Shown: in pieces, positions 29,304-32,461 of the stretch | Numbering within the stretch: the first letter of the stretch is position 1 | Layout: every line of letters begins with the position of its first letter | Source of the DNA: Planctomycetota bacterium | Lineage (GTDB): Bacteria; Planctomycetota; Planctomycetia; Pirellulales; Thermoguttaceae | Direction of reading: 5' to 3' | Assembly (NCBI GenBank): GCA_029550925.1 | Contig: JAKPGL010000126.1 | Coordinates: forward strand, 1 to 39,398 | DNA: 39,398 bases | Notes under the pieces: generated by a model | Database searches by the model: none | What the model was told of the DNA's origin: nothing | What the model saw: only the letters and a program-made list of their open reading frames with translations | Program-made: the position numbers and the translations under genes

Positions 29304-29924
29304 ATGAAACCGCCGAAGTTCATCTATTTCGATTTGGGCAAAGTGTTGGTGGATTTTACCGTAGAGCAGATGTGTCGGCAGTTGTCCGAGGCTGCGCAGA
29401 CCACTCCAGAGGAAATCCATCGGGTGCTTTTTTCGGACGGGCTAGAACTGCGGTATGAACGGGGTCTGCTTTCGACGGAAGAGTTTTACGAAGAGTTTTG
29501 CCGACAGATAGGCCGACGGGTGGATTTTCCACCATTGGCCCAGGCAGCCGCCGACATTTTCACCTGGAAGCCAGAATCGGCGGCTTTGGCGGTGCATTTG
29601 CGCCAGGCGGGGTATCGGCTCGGCATCCTGTCGAATACCTCGCCGCTGCATTGGGAACACTGCCTGCACCGGTACTGCGTGCTGCGGGAGACGTTCGGCG
29701 TCTATGCTCTGAGCTATCGGGTGGGCCATCTGAAGCCAGCGCCGGAAATCTATCAGGCCGCTGCAGAACTGGCCGGTTGTCGGCCGGAAGAAGTATTCTT
29801 CGTCGATGACTATTTGCCCAATGTCGAAGGGGCGCGGGCCGCCGGCCTGGATGCCGTCCAATATACCGGCCCGGCCGACTTGGCCGCAGAACTCCGCCGG
29901 CGCGGCTGCCGATTCAATTATTAG
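29304..29924 (+). CDS. HAD-superfamily phosphatase (YihX-like)
   Basis: A 206-aa haloacid-dehalogenase-type hydrolase. Motif I is IYFDLGKVLVDF, with nucleophile Asp10 and Gly where many phosphatases have a second Asp, a variant known in YihX-like sugar phosphatases and epoxide-hydrolase N-domains. Motif II is ILSNTSPLHWEH, the motif III lysine is in GHLKPAPEIY, and motif IV is FFVDDYLPNVEGARAAG. A four-helix cap lies after motif I. Predicted to dephosphorylate a small phosphorylated metabolite; substrate unknown. It follows the DUF1080 gene by 76 bp on the same strand and may be co-transcribed. Confidence 0.88.
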   Translation: MKPPKFIYFDLGKVLVDFTVEQMCRQLSEAAQTTPEEIHRVLFSDGLELRYERGLLSTEEFYEEFCRQIGRRVDFPPLAQAAADIFTWKPESAALAVHLRQAGYRLGILSNTSPLHWEHCLHRYCVLRETFGVYALSYRVGHLKPAPEIYQAAAELAGCRPEEVFFVDDYLPNVEGARAAGLDAVQYTGPADLAAELRRRGCRFNY

Positions 29925-31013: not shown

Positions 31014-31679
31014 ATGGAGTCTTCCCCGCTTCCGGTTAGGCCCTCCTCGTCGCTATCAGGCCCTCCTCAGCCGGTTCTGACATCGGAAACAAAGAACTGG
31101 TGGTGGAATGTGGCGATTCTGTTGTTGGTGATTGGGGGGGTGTATGGGGTGTTTTATTTCCGGCCGTTTCGCTTGTCCGGAGGTACAAGCCACACTAATG
31201 TGGGAACGCCGCTGCCAATCGTGGAACTGGAGTCGGTCGAACCGGATCAGCGTCCTGTTAGCCGGGAGGACCTCCAGGGCCAGGTGGTGCTTCTCTGTTT
31301 TTGGGGACCGTGGTCGGAGATGTCGCGTCGGGCGCTGCCCCGAGTGGTGGAAGTAGCCGCCCCGTATCAAAAACGGCCCGACTTCCGTCTGCTAACCATC
31401 GCCTGTCCTCAGCAGCCTGGCGACAATAGAGAACAACTTCGGCAACAAGTCCGCGCGGCCCTTCGGGAGTGGAACGTCTCTGCGCCGGTGTATGTGGATC
31501 GGCAGGGCAATACCTTGGTCAGTTTCCGGGCGATGGCGGGCTTGGAACGAGTGCCCTGTGTGTATTTGGTCGATCGGCAGGGGATCATCCAGGCGGTTTG
31601 GCCCGGCTACCGCGACGGGGTAGAAAAGGAAATCCAAGAGCTTTTAGAAGAGTACCTGCCCGAAGCCAAAATCCGATGA
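31014..31679 (+). CDS. Membrane-anchored TlpA/thioredoxin-like protein lacking CXXC
   Basis: A 221-aa protein with a short proline/serine-rich N-terminus, one membrane segment (residues 29-50, WWWNVAILLLVIGGVYGVFY) and a thioredoxin-like domain (about 65-215) that should face the periplasm. The position of the redox motif reads FWGPWSEMSRR: Trp100-Ser101-Glu102-Met103-Ser104 instead of WCXXC, so both redox cysteines are serine. The fold otherwise follows TlpA (LQGQVVLLCFWG, VPCVYLVDRQGIIQAVW with the usual cis-Pro region). Thus it probably cannot catalyse disulfide exchange and may bind partners or act as a chaperone. A normal TlpA-like gene follows 43 bp downstream; the two are likely co-transcribed. 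Confidence 0.85.
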   Translation: MESSPLPVRPSSSLSGPPQPVLTSETKNWWWNVAILLLVIGGVYGVFYFRPFRLSGGTSHTNVGTPLPIVELESVEPDQRPVSREDLQGQVVLLCFWGPWSEMSRRALPRVVEVAAPYQKRPDFRLLTIACPQQPGDNREQLRQQVRAALREWNVSAPVYVDRQGNTLVSFRAMAGLERVPCVYLVDRQGIIQAVWPGYRDGVEKEIQELLEEYLPEAKIR

Positions 31680-31722
31680 AGGCCCTGCTGGCCAAGTCGG
31701 GGGATCGAGGGGGATTCATTCT

Positions 31723-32376
31723 ATGGACGCCTGGAAGGACCAATCGGACGACTCGGCCTCGAAGTGGATTTCTGAAAATCTCGAGCCGAAGGGGTGCCTG
31801 CCGGGCGCAGGCGCCGTGTACGTCCTGGCAGCAATTTTGGCGGTTGCCGGCGGGGTAGGGGTCCTCTGGCTATTGGGCCAAACACAAAAAGACCTCGGAA
31901 GCCGAAAACTTCGCCTTCCAAACGTACAATTGGAACCCCTGCTCCATGCCGAAAAACCGATCCGTTTGGAAGACATGCAGGGTAAAGTCGTCGTGCTGAA
32001 CTTTTGGGGCGCATGGTGTCCGCCCTGTCTGATGGAACTACCGCACCTGGCCGAACTGGAACGCACTTACCGCGGTCGGGAAGGATTCCTCTTTTTGGCC
32101 GTCTCTTGCGGTCCTGGGCCTCAGGAAGACATGGAAGAAATCCGTTCCAATACGGCAGCCTTGCTGGCCAACCAGGGACTGGATATGCCGACCTATCTGG
32201 ACCCTGGTTTTCTGACCCGCCAGGCGGTGGATCAGGCCGTGGGGTTTCAAGGCTATCCGACCACTTTGCTGCTGGATCGGCAAGGATATATCCGGCGGGT
32301 ATGGGTCGGTTTTGATCGACGATTGCCCCACGAACTGAACCAACTCGTCCAACAACTGCTGGCCGAAGGACCATAG
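31723..32376 (+). CDS. Membrane-anchored TlpA-like thiol-disulfide oxidoreductase
   Basis: A 217-aa protein with an N-terminal membrane segment (about residues 30-52) and a periplasmic thioredoxin-like domain. The active site is present: FWGAWCPPCLMELPHL with Cys99 and Cys102, and the cis-Pro loop is in GFQGYPTTLLLDRQG. It should reduce or exchange disulfides in exported proteins, for example during cytochrome c maturation, but no ccm/res genes are adjacent. A cysteine-free paralogue lies just upstream in the same orientation. The ATG at 31723 is preceded by GAGGGG, spaced somewhat long. The next gene, trkH, is convergent. Confidence 0.9.
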   Translation: MDAWKDQSDDSASKWISENLEPKGCLPGAGAVYVLAAILAVAGGVGVLWLLGQTQKDLGSRKLRLPNVQLEPLLHAEKPIRLEDMQGKVVVLNFWGAWCPPCLMELPHLAELERTYRGREGFLFLAVSCGPGPQEDMEEIRSNTAALLANQGLDMPTYLDPGFLTRQAVDQAVGFQGYPTTLLLDRQGYIRRVWVGFDRRLPHELNQLVQQLLAEGP

Positions 32377-32461
32377 CCTGCCCCCGAAGTCTCCTTCTTT
32401 ATAGGTTATAGGGAGGGACTTTTTTCCAGCGGAAGCCCGTACGGGTTCGGCCAGGAGTCGG

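Follow-up and report, generated by a model that had tools for sequence, protein, structure and literature searches.

A TlpA/ResA-like protein without its redox cysteine pair, encoded beside a CXXC paralogue in a planctomycete genus

What could a membrane-anchored protein with a TlpA/ResA-like thioredoxin fold do once both of its redox cysteines are gone, when a paralogue with an intact CXXC motif is encoded directly downstream? This question is raised by two neighbouring genes in a 39,398-nucleotide stretch of planctomycete DNA, which is called the window here. Its source genome (G000) comprises 4.9 Mb on 233 contigs and belongs, with G001 and G002, the two other genomes analysed from it, to the genus labelled g1; other g and G codes stand for further genera and genomes.

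The gene pair

An earlier, sequence-only reading had placed in this window a tandem pair of thioredoxin-like genes, with WSEMS in the first product where the second has WCPPC. Both open reading frames were found as described, in tandem and 43 bp apart, with these motifs. The features of the pair are as follows.

31014-31679, + strand: gene 1 (P0001), 221 aa; TlpA/ResA-like thioredoxin fold, membrane-anchored, without the redox cysteine pair
31098-31169, + strand: transmembrane (TM) helix (residues 29-49) and juxtamembrane FRPF (residues 49-52) of gene 1
31311-31325, + strand: WSEMS of gene 1, replacing WCxxC (Ser101, Ser104)
31332-31334, + strand: Ala107 of gene 1, replacing the buried active-site Glu of the ResA/CcmG/StoA type
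31404-31406, + strand: Cys131 of gene 1, directly after the second core strand
31554-31556, + strand: Pro181 of gene 1, the retained cis-Pro position
31680-31722, + strand: intergenic gap of 43 bp without a + strand terminator-like site
31723-32376, + strand: gene 2 (P0002), 217 aa; TlpA/ResA-like thioredoxin fold, membrane-anchored, WCPPC
32014-32037, + strand: active site of gene 2, WCPPC (Cys99, Cys102) and Glu105
32257-32259, + strand: Pro179 of gene 2, the cis-Pro position
32392-32418, + strand: terminator-like hairpin 3' of gene 2, 12 pairs (3 G-C) and a T run; weak

The two genes are paralogues. Both products matched the AhpC-TSA (PF00578) and Thioredoxin_8 (PF13905) families over the curated cut-offs, with E-values for gene 1 of 1e-8 and 2.9e-7, respectively, and AlphaFold2 modelled each of them as a complete thioredoxin fold with one N-terminal helix (residues 29-49 in gene 1 and 30-52 in gene 2; mean pLDDT 88.4 and 89.2, respectively). 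When the gene 1 model was compared with the PDB, its best matches included the DsbE-like protein 3gl3 (Z 18.6), ResA 2h1b (Z 17.6), and TlpA 1jfu (Z 17.4), as well as the C74A/C77A double mutant of ResA, 2h1g (Z 16.9). Both proteins fell below the NCBIfam cut-offs for ResA (NF002854; 42 bits for gene 1 and 59.9 for gene 2, against 170) and for TlpA (NF047696; 23.7 and 50.6 bits, against 230). Gene 2, which carries the full TlpA/ResA-like feature set of anchor, fold, CXXC, Glu, and cis-Pro position, is predicted to be TlpA-like with no named equivalog.

The active-site stretch reads FWGPWSEMSRRALP in gene 1 and FWGAWCPPCLMELP in gene 2. In the gene 1 product the anchor, the fold, and the cis-Pro position are present, and the CXXC dyad and the buried Glu are absent. 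The earlier label of a cysteine-free protein fits this missing redox pair and does not fit the protein as a whole, in which Cys95, Cys131, and Cys182 are still there; the first two of these are invariant in the g1 trio. We use Cys-free below for proteins without the redox pair.

Because the spacing is short and the gap holds no terminator-like site on the + strand, gene 1 and gene 2 are probably co-transcribed in g1. The hairpin behind gene 2 is weak evidence, because five terminator-like sites were found in the region where shuffled sequences gave 3.3 (sd 2.1).

Conservation and loss across the family

The WSEMS gene is followed by the WCPPC gene in 3/3 g1 genomes, in constant order and with a gap of 46 bp in G001 and 53 bp in G002. 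Identity to the congeneric copies is 63-66% for gene 1 and 65-67% for gene 2, and NG86 dN/dS within the genus amounts to 0.17-0.20 and 0.15-0.20, respectively, values that are only rough because dS lies near or above 1 (NG86 1.08-1.74; the other estimates go down to 0.83, and ML in one case gave 10.7 for gene 2). As far as such rough ratios can tell, purifying selection acts on both genes with comparable strength. Since the motif occurs in all three g1 genomes and the Glu is substituted as well, WSEMS is no chance event or sequencing slip. Sequencing error was ruled out by the identical residues across three assemblies, and a recent loss or pseudogene by the conservation in 3/3 g1 genomes together with a dN/dS of about 0.2. 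The sequence-only reading had argued that gene 1 is not a dead copy, which agrees with its gene 2-like dN/dS, with the presence of pair and motif throughout g1, and with the intact modelled fold. It had also named in advance what would contradict it, namely CXXC in the first gene of close relatives, and none was found within g1.

How far this trait extends was determined by searching 60 relatives (52 matching at 1e-3), 119 genomes of the family (25 matching at 1e-15, and 42 at 1e-12 with a Cys-free profile), 396 genomes of the order (at least 169 matching at 1e-20), and 397 genomes from the class, 47 of which matched at 1e-30; active sites were read in the fetched proteins, which are a subset of the matches listed. 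At 100 bits or more, the fetched TlpA-like proteins numbered 99 distinct ones from 17 families and 64 genera. Ninety of these have CXXC, 65 outside the window's family and 25 inside, and nine, gene 1 included, are without the pair. All nine fall in the window's family (apparently Thermoguttaceae), where they are spread over six genera. Outside the family, 65/65 motifs were CXXC among the matches listed and fetched, and a rare Cys-free protein may exist elsewhere.

The motifs of the nine are WSEMS (the three g1 genomes), WSELS (G018), DSAPS (G012), WIPTS and WVPTS (g25), NNALC (G009), and EHDSV (G024). Conservation of Ser-X-X-Ser, which the earlier reading had proposed to examine by aligning orthologues, thus extends to g1, g11, and g17 and breaks down beyond those genera. 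As the serine pair is limited to three genera, the trait common to the nine is the absence of the redox dyad and not the serines. A general Ser-X-X-Ser chemistry was ruled out, the two positions being I/S, V/S, N/C, and H/V in g25, g8, and g23.

Residues around the active site were counted in the nine Cys-free proteins and in 89 short CXXC proteins. The Glu six residues past the first motif position is present in 89/89 CXXC proteins versus 0/9 Cys-free ones; it is the residue that, in CcmG, ResA, and StoA, is reported to be buried and highly conserved (PMC3961690). The Pro two residues beyond this Glu is found in 89/89 and 5/9, respectively. The cis-Pro position is occupied by Pro in every protein of both sets (89/89 and 9/9), and all nine Cys-free proteins have kept the core Asp/Gly residues (162, 187, 190, 198) and an intact open reading frame.

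The membrane anchor of gene 1 is also constrained. With regions picked post hoc, after seeing the data, 17 of 24 residues in its TM and juxtamembrane segment (residues 29-52) are invariant in the g1 trio versus 5 of 23 in the TM segment of gene 2 (Fisher p 0.0012), and with windows chosen by hydropathy the counts are 17/24 versus 6/24 (p 0.0034). In the thioredoxin domain, 59% of gene 1 and 65% of gene 2 is invariant in the trio. The ratio of TM to domain conservation is 1.21 for gene 1, 1.11 for the Cys-free proteins of g25, and 0.39 for gene 2, with a range of 0.58 to 1.06 in five CXXC control sets; the highest of these is that of g25, in which the TM segment is conserved like the domain. 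Part of the contrast between gene 1 and gene 2 is contributed by the unusually variable anchor of gene 2.

The pattern [FYWH].?RP directly after the membrane helix occurs in 7/9 Cys-free versus 3/90 CXXC proteins. One of these three, from G032, contains the strings SEWSNW and FRPF, as does the Cys-free protein of G018, yet has WCPPC and the Glu. It looks like the state that preceded the cysteine loss, a reading that the tree does not prove. A CXXC version of gene 1 was not seen within g1; G032, from another genus, does have a CXXC protein with a similar anchor.

Linkage and origin of the two genes

That gene 1 is the partner of an active paralogue is plausible, and gene order agrees with it in part of the family: the Cys-free gene neighbours a CXXC gene in g1 and g23, and probably in g17, and the picture is a different one in g25, g8, and G012. 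In G024 (g23), the Cys-free gene is directly followed by the CXXC gene, the full order being CYTH, Cys-free, CXXC. The Cys-free gene of G018 (g17) lies at one contig end and the CXXC gene at another, and these ends share a 53-bp repeat (98%). Adjacency is probable here; the shared repeat suggests it and does not prove it, because it may be dispersed. The G018 contig ends (L057 1-107, L058 1-60) hold palindromic CCCGGGTG-type repeats, perhaps dispersed, perhaps breaking the assembly at these points.

In G026 (g25) and G009 (g8), the Cys-free and CXXC genes are unlinked. In both g25 genomes (L186 7424-9294, L187 36-1510), a carbon-nitrogen hydrolase gene ends where the Cys-free gene, read from an assumed GTG codon, starts, an arrangement that suggests translational coupling to another partner, the hydrolase. 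G012, which is 95% complete, contains a Ser-X-X-Ser protein, and a gene-2-type partner was not found in it; the next matches there were a protein of 849 aa and a WCPPC protein that belongs to another type and is likewise without the Glu. No gene-2-type protein was seen in G114 (about 1,120 pieces), and three genomes from the genus of G114 have one.

In G018, G009, and G024, a CYTH gene (PF01928) lies next to the Cys-free gene in divergent orientation; its homologue stands beside a CXXC gene, likewise divergent, in G006, G016, and G032. The G032 protein with the FRPF anchor (L060 5518-6108, + strand) is the one that adjoins this homologue. In G015, the CYTH homologue and the CXXC gene are about 3.8 kb apart on one contig. 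In the stretches read from g1, g25, and G012, no CYTH gene was seen next to the genes in question.

In the window, the pair is surrounded by HAD hydrolase, scramblase-family, 3-keto-disaccharide hydrolase-type, and TrkH genes, and in other genomes the neighbours are CYTH, carbon-nitrogen hydrolase, FtsX, transglutaminase, and hemerythrin genes. None of the neighbours in the window and in the relatives' stretches read indicates a specific client. The scramblase-family gene (PF03803; 30014-30598, - strand) is divergent and lies before the pair. The HAD-type hydrolase gene (29304-29924, + strand) is 83% identical to L055 11462-12079 (- strand), near the pair in G002, and no homologue of it was seen in the 12.8-kb stretch of G001.

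In a tree of 58 proteins, built with the motif columns removed and with a bootstrap that had not settled, the nine Cys-free proteins fell into two supported groups, one of g17, g11, g8, and g23 (97/87) and one of g25 and g1 (100/99); the G024 copy has a very long branch. Topology tests did not reject the nine as one clade (AU p 0.381), the nine plus the G032 CXXC protein as one clade (p 0.419), or a genus-level duplication giving gene 1 and gene 2 of g1 (p 0.207). Because the CYTH synteny spans Cys-free and CXXC genes, the simplest reading would be an old tandem duplication at the CYTH locus, after which the CYTH-proximal copy may have lost its cysteines and the pair may have moved together in g1.

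Possible roles of the Cys-free protein

Since the dyad and the Glu are gone and the fold, the cis-Pro position, and the anchor are maintained, the gene 1 product would be expected to bind rather than to carry out redox chemistry, and disulfide exchange in the TlpA/ResA manner is unlikely. We propose, with moderate confidence, that it is a non-catalytic, membrane-anchored binding protein descended from a TlpA/ResA-type reductase, probably made together with gene 2 and perhaps helping with the clients of gene 2. In this proposal, duplication of a TlpA/ResA-type thiol reductase gene would have given rise to gene 1, which would then have shed the redox cysteines and active-site Glu and retained the fold, the cis-Pro position, and a constrained TM/juxtamembrane segment. 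In g1, a single transcript would encode gene 1 and the WCPPC reductase of gene 2. The TM segment of gene 1 may dock on a membrane component, its thioredoxin face and cis-Pro groove could keep a client protein bound but unreacted, and gene 2 or its electron donor would subsequently act on the thiols of that client.

By analogy, a client common to gene 1 and gene 2 seems most likely in g1. Candidates would include apo-cytochrome c and a CuA subunit, after the example of ResA and TlpA. The genome of the window encodes a DsbD_TM and a Cytochrom_C_asm protein over the cut-off; the former could supply the electrons and the latter would use the reduced apocytochrome. These suggestions draw on the role of TlpA reported in PMC9145763, and on that of ResA.

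A more specific form of this proposal, which we regard as tentative, is a two-subunit thiol reductase of the envelope, in which a redox-dead paralogue on a dedicated TM segment would recruit clients or the electron donor for its active twin, the FRPF protein being the docking half and the CXXC protein the catalytic half.

The gene 1 product might instead be a stand-alone holdase or assembly chaperone at the membrane surface that has nothing to do with the reductase, with the linkage as a leftover of tandem duplication. We consider this rather unlikely. The genes are indeed unlinked in g25 (G026) and g8, G012 yielded no gene-2-type partner, and the g25 Cys-free gene overlaps the carbon-nitrogen hydrolase gene instead; however, the g1 pair is adjacent in 3/3 genomes that have no CYTH neighbour, as if it had moved together, and the order of Cys-free then CXXC recurs in G024.

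Gene 1 could also encode a monothiol protein acting through Cys131 or Cys95. A precedent is CnoX (YbbN) of Escherichia coli, a thioredoxin-domain protein with SXXC in which Cys63, outside the motif, is reported to form protective mixed disulfides; it is described as a cytoplasmic TPR fusion that forms client complexes and is a partner of GroEL/ES (PMC8129009). The likeness to gene 1 consists of a thioredoxin domain with a broken motif, and Cys131 and Cys95 are both invariant in the genus trio. Gene 1 differs from CnoX, however, in that it is membrane-anchored, has no TPR match (Pfam E<=0.001), and has a thioredoxin domain that reaches the C-terminus. Moreover, Cys95 is confined to g1 among the compared proteins, and Cys131 is no special mark of the Cys-free proteins (6/9), because it is equally common in those with CXXC (66/89). 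We therefore consider a monothiol role improbable.

It is still more doubtful that gene 1 acts as a brake, in that competition with gene 2, over the membrane reductase or over clients, would limit reduction in the envelope: the shared fold and cis-Pro position without the dyad, and the co-directional neighbouring gene, would suit such a role, but the similar long-term retention of both genes is uninformative on the sign of the effect. Finally, that gene 1 is a decaying duplicate is very improbable, given a dN/dS of about 0.2 at dS near or above 1, frames open in 9/9, the cis-Pro position and core Asp/Gly in 9/9, and a conserved anchor, even though the motif has drifted outside g1 (IPTS, VPTS, NALC, HDSV) and the G024 branch is long.

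The non-catalytic binding protein proposed here shares with TlpA, ResA, and CcmG (DsbE) the single N-terminal anchor, the thioredoxin fold, and the cis-Pro position, all of which are common to gene 1 and gene 2; the CXXC and Glu of these proteins are also found in gene 2. Gene 1 differs from them in that neither cysteine of the pair nor the buried Glu is present, and in its own conserved FRPF anchor. Redox-dead thioredoxin folds are already known as a kind. PDILT has a Ser-X-X-Ser (Ser-Lys-Gln-Ser) and a Ser-X-X-Cys domain and reportedly neither oxidizes nor reduces disulfides, ERp29 has a thioredoxin domain without the motif, and TMX2 is membrane-anchored with Ser-Asn-Asp-Cys (PMC3500226). 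All three belong to the PDI family of the eukaryotic ER, and their likeness to gene 1 is one of principle only. In an atlas of 4,082 thioredoxin-fold sequences, both cysteines were reported for 56.8% and no Cys motif for 22% (69% of those being GSTs), and Cys to Ser or Thr was given as the most frequent change (PMC2757866). A limited search of open-licence PMC papers found no description of a TlpA-type Cys-free lineage kept beside an active paralogue.

Inactive relatives that persist beside an active enzyme offer a natural test of the non-catalytic roles of a fold. The split is a clean one here, as the cysteine pair and Glu were lost, the cis-Pro position and anchor were kept, and both genes are under similar selection. 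The pair thereby provides a prokaryotic system in which to ask if client binding and thiol exchange of the TlpA/ResA type can separate into two subunits. In addition, the annotation 'thiol-disulfide oxidoreductase' may be wrong for such planctomycete genes.

Other departures from the dyad were observed among thioredoxin-like proteins. A second loss in the window's own genome concerns a Redoxin-type frame of 254 aa (L235 320-1081, + strand; G000:C88:56000-57700), which reads FWNSQSLSG, has no C..C, and looks unrelated. Long frames of about 830-920 aa recur in the family (L008 283-2976, - strand; L181, L179, L204, L205) and contain a TlpA-like CXXC domain that is not followed by the Glu. Within that long-frame lineage, L180 (G117, 702 aa read) has GEATC, a partial loss.
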